Virus record (IMG/VR): IMGVR_UViG_3300025646_000284
Location: 1 to 27,010 of that record
DNA: 27,010 nt
Source of the DNA: a virus
Reading direction: 5' to 3' (one strand)
Part shown: positions 6,269 through 26,565 of the stretch, piece after piece
Layout of the letters: each line of letters starts with the position of its first letter
Position numbering within the stretch: the first letter of the stretch is position 1
The notes under the pieces: generated by a model
The model's input: only the letters and a program-made list of their open reading frames with translations
What the model was told of the DNA's origin: nothing
Database searches by the model: none
Translations under genes and position numbers: made by a program

Positions 6269-6290
6269 AGCTGTATTGAAACGCAATTTG

Positions 6291-7520
6291 ATGATTCCTC
6301 TTCTCCGTCCACATCAAGAACGTGCGGTTGATCTTATGCAACTGCATGAAAAAGGTCAGATCGTGGTCCCCACTGGTGGCGGGAAAACGATGAAGATGAT
6401 CCGCGATGCAATGATGCAACTTGAGTCTCAAGATGCAAAGACTATTGTTATCGTTGCACCACGCATCTTGCTCGCAGAACAATTATGTTCTGAGTTCCTA
6501 GAGTTTATCACCAACGCAAGTGTGATGCACATTCACTCTGGTGAAACTCATCACTTTAGTTCTACCAAACCCCAAGAGATTGTGGATTGGGTTGTGAACA
6601 CCAAAGGTCACAAGATGATCTTCACCACCTATAATTCTCTGGGTCGTCTGCAACAAACTCGTCTCCCCGTAGATACCATCTACTTCGACGAAGCTCACAA
6701 CTCTGTGCAACGTCACTTCTTCCCTGCAACTGAATACTTCAGTCAGGAAGCTGACCGTTGTTACTTCTTCACTGCGACTCCCAAACATTCTCTCGCAGTT
6801 GGTAAGCCTGGGATGAATGATGTAGAAGTTTATGGTCAGGTGATTTGTAATGTTCCTGCACCTGAACTTGTGGAAGGTGGTTACATCCTCCCTCCTAAAG
6901 TTATCGCAAAACAACTTCCTATGGTTGGTAAGGGTAAGATTCCCGCAGATCGGGATTGTACTAACTTGATTGAGACTCTGGATGAATGTGGTAAGGACAA
7001 AGTGTTGATCTGTGCGAAAGCTACCAAACAGATCTCTGCACTGATGTCCGAGACTGATTTCATCCAACAACTCCAAGATCGTGGGTTCTCTTATCTCTAC
7101 ATCACCGCAAAGACTGGTGCAATTATCAACGGTCAGAAGGTGAACCGTGAGGTATTCTTTGAGACCCTAAGTTCATGGGGTAAGGATGACAACAAGAAGT
7201 TTGTTGTGCTACATCACTCTATCCTCTCTGAGGGTATCAATGTCTCTGGACTTGAGGGTGTGATCTTTATGCGTTCGATGGACTACATTGGTATCTCTCA
7301 AACCATCGGCCGTGTGATTCGGATGCACCACAACGATGCAGCTCGTATCCGTAGTGGTGAACTGGTTCCTGGTGACGTTGACAACTATACCAAATCTTTT
7401 GGTCTGGTTGTTGTTCCCGTGTTCAACAAAGTTGGGATCTCTACTCACCAGAAGATCCAAGCTGTGGTGGATACGATCTTCCAACAAGGACAACCTGCAA
7501 TCAGTGTTGTCAAACGATGA
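6291..7520 (+). CDS. SF2 DEAH-box helicase, 409 aa
   Basis: ATP-dependent nucleic-acid helicase or translocase of superfamily 2. Motifs in order: a Q-like start LLRPHQERAVDLM, Walker A TGGGKT with Lys32, DEAH at 133-136, TATP at 161-164 (motif III), and QTIGRVIR at 337-344 with Arg341 and Arg344 (motif VI). The two RecA-like domains fill the protein, so it is a minimal helicase without an extra nuclease or zinc domain. I placed the start at ATG 6291 because the promoter -10 ends at 6268; an in-frame TTG at 6276 is the alternative. It could be a UvsW-like recombination helicase, or the motor of a defence or modification system with the DUF262-HNH protein upstream; the position favours neither firmly. 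Confidence 0.9.
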   Translation: MIPLLRPHQERAVDLMQLHEKGQIVVPTGGGKTMKMIRDAMMQLESQDAKTIVIVAPRILLAEQLCSEFLEFITNASVMHIHSGETHHFSSTKPQEIVDWVVNTKGHKMIFTTYNSLGRLQQTRLPVDTIYFDEAHNSVQRHFFPATEYFSQEADRCYFFTATPKHSLAVGKPGMNDVEVYGQVICNVPAPELVEGGYILPPKVIAKQLPMVGKGKIPADRDCTNLIETLDECGKDKVLICAKATKQISALMSETDFIQQLQDRGFSYLYITAKTGAIINGQKVNREVFFETLSSWGKDDNKKFVVLHHSILSEGINVSGLEGVIFMRSMDYIGISQTIGRVIRMHHNDAARIRSGELVPGDVDNYTKSFGLVVVPVFNKVGISTHQKIQAVVDTIFQQGQPAISVVKR

Positions 7521-7529
7521 CTATATATT

Positions 7530-7545
7530 TTACACATATTTGTAA
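7530..7545 (+). promoter_or_regulatory. Conserved inverted repeat before dioxygenase 1
   Basis: TTACA-CATATT-TGTAA is a 5-bp inverted repeat ending three bases before the ATG. The same sequence precedes the second dioxygenase (9217-9232), within a block from ATATTTTACAC to the start codon that is identical in both. It may be an operator or translational control site; it also overlaps AT-rich promoter-like sequence. Confidence 0.45.
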
Positions 7546-7548
7546 CAA

Positions 7549-8583
7549 ATGAAGACTAGATCATTAAAAAATTATAGAGCATCCGTTGGTGTTGAAGCTT
7601 ATGACATTGATTGGAATTGTCAAGAGGAGTTGTTAGAACTTGGAAGACTATGTGCGTCTCAGTGCATTGTTTTCTTAGAGGAAAACATCACAACAGAAAA
7701 CTTATTTAATGTGATGAGTAAGTGGGGCGATCCCAGTAGAGCTTTTACTCATGAATACATTGTAAATAAAAAACTAACAGGTAGGCACTGGAGGGAAATC
7801 CTTGTAAATCTTGCTTACGTTAGTAACGCAGCTGGCAAAAATCTGAGTCAAGGAATTGCATACGTTAGTTACAAAGAAAATGAGAAAGGAAAACCAGAAG
7901 GGATGTTCCAAAATGGAGAATTAAATTGGCACAGCGATCAATGCGCTCTAGATGATGGTCAAAGAATAATCGGTCTCAAGGGTGTTAGTGATACGGAAAA
8001 TAGCCAAACTCAGTTTCTCTGTACGCATGATGCTTACGAATCCTTAAGTTCTGACATGCAGAGTATGATCAAAGAACTTGTGGTGAAACATAGGTGGATT
8101 GATCATGTTATGGCTCCAGGATTGAGTGATATTCAATCATTATTAGCGCACTATAACATGGTCCCTCTTGATGGGATGGAAACTTCTTTGTATAGTGAAA
8201 CTGCTTCTGGTTTGCCTGGAATTAAACTACCCACCCATTCATTTGATGGTTTTGTCGGTATGCCAAGAGAAGAAAGTAATAGAATATTGATGGAGATTGG
8301 AGGGGTAATTTTCCAAGACAAGTATGTTTACACTCATGATTGGAACGATGGTCAAGTAGTTTTTATGGATCAAGAAATTACTCTTCATAAGAGACCAACA
8401 AACATTGAATCTGGTAATAAAAGAACAATGGCCAGATCAGTATTTTATGTCAACAAACTTTATGATTCTCCAAAGTCTAAAAAAGTTGAAAAGGTAAGGT
8501 ATAATGGATCTTTCTACGACATCGAAGACTTTGTTACACTTGTTGATGAAGACCGCAAACAAAGGTATTATGCAACCACTTGA
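7549..8583 (+). CDS. TauD/TfdA-type Fe(II)/2-oxoglutarate dioxygenase, paralogue 1, 344 aa
   Basis: Predicted non-haem iron oxygenase coupling oxidation of a small substrate to 2-oxoglutarate decarboxylation. The iron triad is visible: His128 and Asp130 in NWHSDQC, and His280 in ITLHKRP. Arg292 or Arg296 downstream is placed to bind 2-oxoglutarate. Length and order fit the TauD family. The substrate cannot be read from sequence. A second copy with the same residue numbering lies at 9236. The N-terminal 27 residues and the stretch 120-190 are nearly identical between copies, whereas residues 45-115 and the C-terminus differ. Leader and start are also shared, so both copies are probably regulated alike. 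Confidence 0.85.
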   Translation: MKTRSLKNYRASVGVEAYDIDWNCQEELLELGRLCASQCIVFLEENITTENLFNVMSKWGDPSRAFTHEYIVNKKLTGRHWREILVNLAYVSNAAGKNLSQGIAYVSYKENEKGKPEGMFQNGELNWHSDQCALDDGQRIIGLKGVSDTENSQTQFLCTHDAYESLSSDMQSMIKELVVKHRWIDHVMAPGLSDIQSLLAHYNMVPLDGMETSLYSETASGLPGIKLPTHSFDGFVGMPREESNRILMEIGGVIFQDKYVYTHDWNDGQVVFMDQEITLHKRPTNIESGNKRTMARSVFYVNKLYDSPKSKKVEKVRYNGSFYDIEDFVTLVDEDRKQRYYATT

Positions 8584-8653
8584 TGAGCTGCACACTAATC
8601 ATACCAAAACTCTTGTTAATCTGACATAGTGGCTTTGTTGAGCCCCAAACATT

Positions 8654-9202
8654 ATGGAAAAGTGGGAAGTCTACGCTGAAGGAACCTTCAATAACATGAG
8701 GGGGAACATTCACAACTGGAACCGATCATTTGATGACAAACGAAAGATCTCCCGTGACTTTTACTACGGGGTATTTGATGCAGGCAATCCCAATCCGTTG
8801 GGGTTGATCAGTGAACAAGCTCTGGAGAATCAACTCACAAAAAAGTATAGGCTAAACACCTGGGATCACTACCATTCTCCTCAATTTGTGGGTAGGATGA
8901 TTGCAGAAAATGCAGACAAGTATCTGGAGGATTATGAGGCGTTCAAGAGGATCTTCCTGGTCTGCACACAACAAATCTGTGTGACTAAAAAAGAGAATGA
9001 GAACCTCTCTTTTCTCACTGCACCTGATAAAGATGATTACAAAGTTCTTGTACCCACAAACCTAAAGTACAACCATCTCGGTATCAAACTGTATCAGAGA
9101 GAAGAGGGTAAAGTAAGGTGGAAGAACTCCTATCCCGTTGATACCAACATCCTTGACATTCCTGAAGATCTGTTAGAATACGAAAAAAAGTATCTAGTAT
9201 AA
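8654..9202 (+). CDS. Hypothetical protein between the dioxygenases, 182 aa
   Basis: Unknown function. The N-terminus is rich in Asn, Arg and aromatic residues (FNNMRGNIHNWNRSFDDKRK) and the middle has TWDHYHSPQFVGRMIAE and FLVCTQQICV, which may form a buried strand. No signal peptide or known motif. Codon use is less AT-rich than in the flanking dioxygenases, suggesting a different origin. Upstream (8584-8653) is a 70-base gap containing GCTGCACACTAATC, a likely remnant of the promoter cassette found after 13.7 kb. Confidence 0.7.
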   Translation: MEKWEVYAEGTFNNMRGNIHNWNRSFDDKRKISRDFYYGVFDAGNPNPLGLISEQALENQLTKKYRLNTWDHYHSPQFVGRMIAENADKYLEDYEAFKRIFLVCTQQICVTKKENENLSFLTAPDKDDYKVLVPTNLKYNHLGIKLYQREEGKVRWKNSYPVDTNILDIPEDLLEYEKKYLV

Positions 9203-9216
9203 AAAGACTACATATT

Positions 9217-9232
9217 TTACACATATTTGTAA
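9217..9232 (+). promoter_or_regulatory. Conserved inverted repeat before dioxygenase 2
   Basis: Same TTACA-CATATT-TGTAA element as at 7530-7545, again three bases before the ATG. It shows that the duplication included the leader. Confidence 0.45.
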
Positions 9233-9235
9233 CAA

Positions 9236-10282
9236 ATGAAGACTAAATCATTGCAAAATTATAGTGCATCTGTTGGTGTTGAAGCTTATGACATTGATTG
9301 GAATTGTGCAGAAGAACTCCTAGAATTAGGGAGGTTGTGTGCTTCTCAATGTGTAGTGTTTGTGAATGAAGAAGTGCCTATAGAAACACTTTATAAAACA
9401 ATGATGGAGTGGGGTGATGCTAGTAGAGCTTTCATTCATAATGCTGTCATTTCAAAACAACTTCAAGGTAGGCATTGGAGAGAAATCCTCTTAAACTTAG
9501 GTTACATCAATAGAGACATTGATGAAAAGTTTAAGGGTGCAATGAGTATGGTCAGTTATAAGAGGGATGAGAAAGATAGGCCAAAAGGTATTTTTCAAAA
9601 TGGAGAATTGAATTGGCACAGCGATCAATGTGCATTTGATGATGGTCAAAGAATAATCGGCCTTAAGAGTGTTAGTGATACCGAAAATAGCCAAACTCAG
9701 TTTCTTTGTACTCACGATGGCTATGAATCTCTAAGTTCCGACATGCAGAGTATGATTAAAGAACTTGTGGTGAAACATAGGTGGATTGATCACTCATTAG
9801 CTCCTGGGTTAAATCACTCTCAAACTTTATTGATCCACTACAACTCTGTGCCCATTGATGGAATGGAAACCAAATTTTATAGAGAAACTTGTACTGGTTT
9901 GTCTGGTATAAAACTTCCTGTGAATAGCTTCGATGGATTTGTGGGAATGTCTATGGAAGAGAGTAATAAAGTGATGGAGGAGATAAACAAGTCAGTTTAT
10001 AAGGAAGAATACGTTTATACACAAAATTGGAACGATGGTCAAGTAGTTTTTATGGATCAAGAAATTACTCTACATAGAAGACCAACAAACATAGAGGATG
10101 GTAACAAAAGAACTATGATGAGAGTCATTTCCTATCTCAATAAATTATTTGATAATGAACAGTCCAAGATACTTGATAAAATAAGGTATAATGGAGAATA
10201 CTATGATCAAACTGATTTTCTCAAGTTAGTTGATAACGATCGAAAAAGTAGATTTTTGTTAGAAACCACTGAAATTAAATGA
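9236..10282 (+). CDS. TauD/TfdA-type Fe(II)/2-oxoglutarate dioxygenase, paralogue 2, 348 aa
   Basis: Second copy of the dioxygenase. Iron ligands are His128, Asp130 and His280, at exactly the same residue numbers as in copy 1, so both are intact and probably active. The core around the HxD motif (NGELNWHSDQCAFDDGQRII and onward to KHRWIDH) is nearly identical to copy 1 at protein level and close at DNA level, while the flanking thirds have diverged. That suggests gene conversion or strong selection on the active site with altered substrate specificity. The stop overlaps the next gene as ATGA. Confidence 0.85.
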   Translation: MKTKSLQNYSASVGVEAYDIDWNCAEELLELGRLCASQCVVFVNEEVPIETLYKTMMEWGDASRAFIHNAVISKQLQGRHWREILLNLGYINRDIDEKFKGAMSMVSYKRDEKDRPKGIFQNGELNWHSDQCAFDDGQRIIGLKSVSDTENSQTQFLCTHDGYESLSSDMQSMIKELVVKHRWIDHSLAPGLNHSQTLLIHYNSVPIDGMETKFYRETCTGLSGIKLPVNSFDGFVGMSMEESNKVMEEINKSVYKEEYVYTQNWNDGQVVFMDQEITLHRRPTNIEDGNKRTMMRVISYLNKLFDNEQSKILDKIRYNGEYYDQTDFLKLVDNDRKSRFLLETTEIK

Positions 10283-10674
10283 TTTTTCCAAACGAAACTA
10301 TCCTCGATCCTGATAACGGGCCTAGTGGATTTGCTACACCAGACTTTACCATGGCTGCAGTTCCCTTTACAAGTTCTGGTGAGTATGTTCTGATTGTTGA
10401 TGGGAAACACCATGAGTATTGCAAAGATCGCAAGACTGCCGAGATTAAATTAGAACAACTCTGGAAGGCGACACGAAAAGGGCAGAAGGGTACTAAGACA
10501 CCTGTGCAGCCAAAATCGCAAAAAAAGGCGAAAACGCCTAGTGGCCGCAAGGGATCTCAAGGGTCAAAACCCAAGGCCACCAAGGGTTCCACCACCAAAC
10601 CCAAATCTAAGAGTGTGACAGTCAAGAAACCGCACACTCTTCACCCAAATCCCCTGCTTGACGCATTAAGTTAG
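10279..10674 (+). CDS. Protein with long Lys/Ser/Thr-rich basic tail, 131 aa
   Basis: Unknown function. Residues 1-75 form a small domain (GEYVLIVDGKHHEYCKDRK, then AEIKLEQLWKATRKG). From about residue 74 the protein is low-complexity and highly basic (KGQKGTKTPVQPKSQKK and similar repeats of K, G, S, T, P) up to VKKPHTLHPNP. Such histone-like tails bind nucleic acid nonspecifically, so a DNA-compacting or nucleoid-binding role is possible. It is coupled to the dioxygenase by a 4-base overlap. Confidence 0.7.
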   Translation: MIFPNETILDPDNGPSGFATPDFTMAAVPFTSSGEYVLIVDGKHHEYCKDRKTAEIKLEQLWKATRKGQKGTKTPVQPKSQKKAKTPSGRKGSQGSKPKATKGSTTKPKSKSVTVKKPHTLHPNPLLDALS

Positions 10675-25974: not shown

Positions 25975-26565
25975 ATGTATTATAAGAAACTTGATATTGA
26001 TGACTTTCAATCAATACAAAAAAAAGTGGTTGAATATATTACAAAATTTATCACTGATGATGTTAATGTATCTGAGGAAAAATTCTCTGAAAAAGTTTCT
26101 TTTAACTTTATATCTGATGAAGATCTGAGAAAATTTAAAGAAGATATTCCAGAGTTATTTGAATGTATTCGAAGAGAACTCGGAAGTGAAGTTCCATACA
26201 TGGCATACGTATACATTGATGAAGTAGAAGCACTTGCACTTCACACTGATGGAGACAATTCAATAAAAAGAAGAATTAGACTACATTGGCCAATATTAAA
26301 TGAAACAAGTGCAGAGACGGTGTATTACAAACGAAAAAAAGAAAATGTAGACTCAATACATCATGCATTTAAATCAGGCGTAAATGGACATCAGTATGAC
26401 CCAGATGATGTATATGAAGTTGATAGATATATTTTGGATGTTCCGACATTAAATAGTGTAAAAGAGATTCATGGAGTTGATGTAATTAGTGATAAACTAC
26501 CAAGAATCTTACTTACTATGAGATTATCAAACGAAGAAGAAATTTATCAAAAATATTTTAACTAA
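25975..26565 (+). CDS. 2OG-Fe(II) oxygenase-like protein, 196 aa
   Basis: It fits the cyanophage family of small Fe(II)/2-oxoglutarate oxygenase-like proteins: HTDG with His90 and Asp92, LHWPILNETSAETVYY where relatives have a NxPI-N-C strand, then His166 in EIHGV, and Arg177 (PRILLTMRL) 11 residues later, the usual 2-oxoglutarate site. All four residues are present, so it could be active. Substrate unknown. It is AT-richer than the accessory genes and lies behind a late promoter, so it is probably expressed late. It is not similar to the two TauD-type genes. Confidence 0.75.
   Translation: MYYKKLDIDDFQSIQKKVVEYITKFITDDVNVSEEKFSEKVSFNFISDEDLRKFKEDIPELFECIRRELGSEVPYMAYVYIDEVEALALHTDGDNSIKRRIRLHWPILNETSAETVYYKRKKENVDSIHHAFKSGVNGHQYDPDDVYEVDRYILDVPTLNSVKEIHGVDVISDKLPRILLTMRLSNEEEIYQKYFN

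Follow-up and report, generated by a model that had tools for sequence, protein, structure and literature searches.

Two oxygenase genes that lie one gene apart in a viral genome are, judging from their sequences, representatives of two old lineages of a single subfamily, carried largely by phages, of Fe(II)/2-oxoglutarate (2OG) oxygenases with the TauD fold. The sequence that we analyzed, hereafter the window, comprises positions 1–27,010 (27 kb) of IMG/VR virus record IMGVR_UViG_3300025646_000284, and we refer to the two genes as A and B and to the gene between them as MID. The best explanation of the locus as a whole, which we regard as probably correct, is that old lineages residing in two adjacent insertion slots were assembled into a pair through recombination, and that their products would hydroxylate acyl groups held on an acyl carrier protein (ACP).

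The locus and its two oxygenases

The best DNA matches of the window were short stretches of Synechococcus myoviruses, and its gene order (uvsW–MID–DN–DUF6267) resembles that of isolates such as S-SCSM2R. The locus comprises the following features.

6276..7520, + strand: UvsW-like helicase gene, left border of slot 1 (Pfam ResIII/DEAD, phrog_16; UvsW is annotated in the same neighbourhood of isolate S-SCSM2R)
7520..7548, + strand: leader of A, starting ACTAYATA and identical to the leader of B at 28 of 29 bases
7549..8583, + strand: oxygenase A, TauD fold, 344 amino acids (PF02668, 1.8e-15; clade assigned from the tree and diagnostic sites)
7903..8109, + strand: conserved core of A, codons 119–187, containing H128-x-D130 (from segment identity)
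8573..8629, + strand: remnant, out of frame, of a B-type oxygenase gene, covering its 3′ end (QPLDELHTNHTKTLVNLT, then a stop) and starting inside the end of A (recognized by its match to the 3′ terminus of the L031 oxygenase gene)
8654..9202, + strand: MID, the gene between both slots, 182 amino acids, no assigned function (orthologues elsewhere)
9207..9235, + strand: leader of B, starting ACTACATA (from comparison with the leader of A)
9236..10282, + strand: oxygenase B, TauD fold, B clade, 348 amino acids (PF02668, 2.3e-15; structure model)
9590..9796, + strand: conserved core of B, codons 119–187, containing H128-x-D130 (from segment identity)
10279..10674, + strand: DN (the name used here), right border gene of slot 2, whose ATG overlaps the stop of B

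Because two further IMG/VR contigs (L001 and L002) carry the same arrangement, with proteins 100% identical to these, it is not an isolated artefact of assembly. Orthologues of MID were found at 25 viral loci and in 17 Synechococcus phage records, and the protein matched no Pfam family above the cut-off. On the + strand of the window ACTAYATA occurs at 7520 and 9207 only, and since promoter and terminator scans gave scores no better than those of shuffles, we treat it as a conserved leader motif only. An Rfam search returned no match, and the PhyH family was absent from the window. A small gene at 25975–26565 of the window has a possible HxD motif, without a convincing family match; a relative with 28% identity lies ~8.5 kb from the tandem oxygenases of contig L024.

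A and B align without internal gaps and are 67% identical in amino acids and 71% in nucleotides. Wherever it could be measured, the description in the original prediction, which had been made from the letters of the window alone, was accurate: the iron ligands H128, D130 and H280 have the same numbers in both proteins, the leaders and first 27 codons are nearly identical (88.9% of nucleotides in the codons), the region around HxD is conserved (88.5% in codons 119–150 and 87.4% in codons 151–187, versus 59.6–60.5% in codons 28–60, 61–118 and 291–344), and the intervening gene differs in base composition (GC 41% and GC3 49% for MID, versus 35–37% and 30% for A and B). Missing from that description was an extra conserved block, codons 263–290 (88.1% nucleotide identity), in which the distal iron ligand H280 lies. 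Synonymous divergence was uneven along the genes, with pS of 0.35–0.6 in the conserved blocks and mostly 0.6–0.97 elsewhere, and identical synonymous codons were modestly clustered, with P = 0.0095 in a variance test and P = 0.30 in a test of the longest segment. Differences that are fixed or nearly fixed between the A and B clades were confined to regions outside the conserved blocks (67–73, 92–100, 200–213 and 299–314), with none in the core. This distribution makes the proposed diversification of substrate-binding parts plausible, and the substrates, or the positions acted on, may not be the same for A and B.

Both genes are intact and their proteins scored above the gathering cut-off of the PF02668 profile (58 and 57.6 bits for A and B, versus 27), and H128, D130, H280 and R292 align with H99, D101, H255 and R266 of E. 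coli TauD, which are the iron triad and the 2OG arginine. A structure model of B (pLDDT 93.6), built with 42 diverse sequences, has a double-stranded beta-helix fold that matches TauD, AtsK and AAD-1 with Z scores of 22–24 (up to 23.8, and 22.8 for E. coli TauD). One genotype, represented by two contigs (L105:3226–4290 and L106:8001–9065), encodes a family member with HxA (WHSAE) replacing HxD, as in the iron ligands of Fe/2OG halogenases; its gene lies between those for the ribonucleotide reductase small chain and glutaredoxin.

Two insertion slots around MID

In phages that have no oxygenase at this locus (L047 and L033), the helicase gene, MID and DN follow one another with nothing inserted, uvsW and MID each ending in a stop that overlaps the start of its successor. 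Oxygenase genes were found at either junction. A-type genes occupy slot 1, between uvsW and MID, in L009, L014, L015 and L017, and slot 2, between MID and DN, in L016; B-type genes occupy slot 1 in L004 and L031 and slot 2 in L006, whose contig ends inside the gene. Tandem copies also occur (A–B in L010 and B–B in L003), and both junctions were found filled, as in the window, in this phage only (three contigs). In isolate S-CAM9 a gene lying between UvsW and MID is annotated as a 2OG-Fe(II) oxygenase. The same junctions also hold other cargo, namely a small cupin-like gene, alone or accompanied by a 2OG-oxygenase-like gene (L032, L053 and L014; L040–L046), both kinds being assigned by motif reading, not by family search. 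In slot 2 of L040–L046 (L040:6547–7533) a cupin-like ORF and a 2OG-oxygenase-like ORF replace the TauD-type gene. Each oxygenase gene forms, with its leader, a compact cassette of ~1.1 kb located at one of two adjacent junctions in T4-like cyanophages. Slot 1 of L009 (9537–10000) contains an ORF that by eye resembles homing-endonuclease modular repeats, then an apparent duplicated end of the helicase gene, then the oxygenase; the ORF and the duplicated end are a possible trace of cassette mobility.

Slot 1 of the window retains part of another resident. The segment at 8573–8653 is identical at 76 of 81 nucleotides to the end of the B-clade oxygenase gene of L031. The match takes in the final 18 codons of that gene, its stop and intergenic DNA, is out of frame with A and contains five changes, of which three are synonymous. 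By the tree and by diagnostic sites, the body of gene A itself belongs to the A clade, and its first 27 codons are B-like. Given this B-type 3′ remnant, the B-like leader and the 27 B-like codons that follow it, we infer that the earlier occupant of slot 1 was a B-type gene, whose place an A-type body took by exchange. Such sharing of ends recurs, in that the A-type gene L010_1 has its leader and N-terminus in common with the B-type gene of L031 (96% nucleotide identity over 27 codons).

The order of events that we propose is that a B-type gene would first have occupied slot 1, that an A-type body would then have replaced it by way of the N-terminus, which is conserved, and of a short matching stretch at the 3′ end, and that the replacement would have left the B-like leader and N-terminus and the B-type remnant, the A–B pair having been assembled through recombination between phage variants. 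As for an origin of the pair by a single crossover inside MID, between a phage with A in slot 1 and a phage with B in slot 2, the two halves of MID showed no clear switch.

Origin of the pair and conservation of the core

In a tree of relatives gathered from IMG/VR (~50 distinct sequences), A and B fell into two separate clades, each with orthologues in other phages. The single-copy relatives that had seemed worth searching for proved to be common, most phages of the group carrying one gene, of either type A or type B. When the variable segments were analyzed separately, A grouped with its A-clade orthologues, and sisterhood of A and B was rejected (P-AU = 4e-53). Their adjacency, shared strand and common leader might suggest that one gene was recently duplicated in tandem in this lineage, MID then being inserted and the copies diversifying, much as the original prediction had offered as one of its two explanations. 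We consider this extremely improbable, because closer orthologues of both A and B exist in other phages, MID has the same genes on either side in phages that lack an oxygenase altogether, slot 1 contains a B-type remnant, and the flank tree contradicts it. Other oxygenase pairs (L003, L010, L024 and L094/L096) occupy separate parts of the tree, and wherever a pair is completely sequenced each copy has an intact triad. A collection of cellular genomes from 84,980 species contained one related locus only, L110 (NZ_VRZC01000077.1), on a contig of a Geminocystis MAG, and yielded no cellular source of the oxygenases. The L110 relative is 64% identical, and its contig, with coverage of ~2x, is possibly a phage contig.

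The other explanation on offer was gene conversion between the resident copies, actively keeping the active site and N-terminus alike as the rest diverged. The near-identity of the leaders is in keeping with it, as is the rank of the window pair, which was the closest of 63 A–B pairs in the core (0.879, versus a median of 0.797) and the closest of 49 in block 263–290, yet ranked 50, 40 and 35, below the median, in the variable segments. An outgroup-free analysis of diagnostic sites was misleading, B states in the core and at ~191–201 being mostly ancestral, and we used polarised sites instead: among sites with a derived B base, A shares five of five in the N-terminus and core versus five of 28 elsewhere (P = 0.001, uncorrected, in a test applied to 16 sequences). 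The next-best value (P = 0.013) belonged to L010_1, which is also the neighbour of a B copy. Clustering of synonymous identity points the same way, both here (P = 0.0095) and in the co-resident L003 pair (P = 0.001), whereas the co-resident L010 pair showed no excess. Against conversion, the blocks that are alike in A and B, codons 119–187 among them, are conserved in every member of the family, those of unrelated and single-copy phages included, so selection alone maintains the amino acids of the core, and conversion is not needed to maintain the active site. Synonymous sites were moreover near saturation in nearly all pairs (mostly 0.5–0.6 identical codons), and although the core tree favored A with B (UFB 84), monophyly of the A clade was not rejected in either the core (P-AU = 0.108) or the N-terminus (P-AU = 0.10). 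Active conversion of this kind strikes us as unlikely. Considerably more credible, if in our estimate still a little short of even, is that the core was never exchanged, with purifying selection on the Fe/2OG site and codon preference sufficing and with exchange limited to the leader and N-terminus. Family-wide conservation, the non-significant AU test and the longest-segment test (P = 0.30) all fit that account; the first-place ranks of the window pair in both conserved blocks, set against its below-median ranks elsewhere, and the polarised sites do not.

Weighing these results, we lean slightly toward some exchange in the core, old and partly overwritten. Core conservation is mostly a matter of family-wide purifying selection, with a modest signal of B-to-A exchange left over. 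The evidence that the two types exchanged sequence is good for the 5′ end (leader and ~27 codons) and for the 3′ side of slot 1, and suggestive for the core. In the recombinational history that we favor, the core would be kept mainly for its iron and 2OG site, with further local B-to-A exchange likely.

Acyl-carrier context and relation to known enzymes

In freshwater viromes, tauD has been read as a sulfur-scavenging auxiliary gene (PMC9469726). The Pfam TauD match and the similarity of fold to E. coli TauD would favor such a role in taurine use for A and B, but it appears highly unlikely here, given that their scores on the NCBIfam taurine dioxygenase model NF007104 (13.4 and 14.3 bits) fall short of its cut-off of 313 by ~300 bits. 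The positions that we take to contact taurine in TauD (H70, Y73, N95, V102, F104, F159 and F206) are replaced, the alignment near 70–73 being uncertain, whereas the catalytic residues are conserved. The genes that accompany family members, for ACP and an acyltransferase, also argue against taurine.

In diverged phages (L024, L026, L070, L076, L080 and L086) the oxygenase gene is followed by genes for a NeuD/LpxD-like hexapeptide acyltransferase and an ACP; the L024 operon contains two oxygenases, and in L011 the ACP is fused to the oxygenase. Three or more fatty-acid desaturase genes lie beside the oxygenase in L083 and L084 (three to four in tandem, at L083:2806–5248 and L084:3323–8008), and L084 also encodes KASIII and an acyltransferase. 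In L072–L074 the gene after the oxygenase joins an APS-kinase-like half to an NMN-adenylyltransferase-like half. Among isolates, ACP and ACPS are present in P-HM1 and P-HM2 (see also PMC3037559) and in MED4-213, which form one genus and whose oxygenase, a distant relative in PHROG 24590, is 24–27% identical, and in none of S-CREM1, S-SCSM2R, S-CAM9 and S-T4; no ACP was present in Mosig, a phage whose TauD relative is more distant. In the group to which the window belongs, five genotypes that carry only A have the region ~4 kb upstream covered, and all five have an acyltransferase gene there, versus two of 11 others (P = 0.005, weakening to P = 0.024 with the window counted as A). This association concerns the A type only; a comparison of genotypes with any oxygenase versus none gave P = 0.23. 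The L080 acyltransferase, used as a query, had no match in the collection of phage isolates.

The 27-kb window, a fragment of an incomplete genome, encodes neither an ACP nor an acyltransferase, and the 56–124-kb records of its closest relatives contain no ACP. The link to a carrier is therefore through the family, not through this phage, in whose group a host ACP would have to serve. With that proviso, the family context suggests hydroxylation of a carrier-bound acyl group, not of taurine. A and B would hydroxylate an acyl (or aminoacyl) group on ACP, supplied by the host here and by the phage in relatives; a NeuD/LpxD-like acyltransferase could then pass the acyl group to a sugar. A and B may have different substrates or act at different positions. 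More tentatively still, and with less than even confidence, we can imagine a phage pathway of carrier-dependent acyl hydroxylation and acyl transfer (oxygenase, ACP, LpxD/NeuD-like acyltransferase and sometimes desaturases and KASIII) whose product would be an acylated, modified sugar destined for the surface of the host or for the virion, the two oxygenases each acting at a different position; it would take in much of the 'tauD' of freshwater viromes, and the HxA member of L105 could even be a halogenase. If the subfamily acts on carrier-bound acyl groups, virome tauD counts (e.g., PMC9469726) would reflect surface or lipid chemistry made by phages.

A and B share with E. coli TauD, AtsK and AAD-1/RdpA (PF02668) the fold, the HxD...H triad and the 2OG arginine, but are only 13–22% identical to them and do not keep the substrate residues of TauD. 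A C-terminal helix (325–347) lies outside most structural alignments with TauD/TfdA members, and, unlike those, the present subfamily was found almost only in viral contigs. The 'taurine catabolism dioxygenase' of P-HM1 and P-HM2 (T4-GC447) belongs to the same PHROG as A and B (24590, 7e-25), although at 24–27% identity, in single copy and at another locus, near gp59. HctB and DdaC are carrier-dependent Fe/2OG enzymes (PMC6218459, PMC12451424), and A and B would likewise perform non-heme iron oxidation of a carrier-tethered group, a likeness in proposed logic only. Finally, 2OG-Fe(II) oxygenase genes are scattered through the genomes of T4-like cyanophages (PMC3037559, PMC9964418) and are, like A and B, sporadic, multiple and carried as cargo. 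The difference is that here they occupy, as interchangeable cassettes, a defined locus behind uvsW with two slots on either side of a single gene, which makes the locus a clear natural record of auxiliary-gene swapping between cyanophages with the regulatory ends kept.
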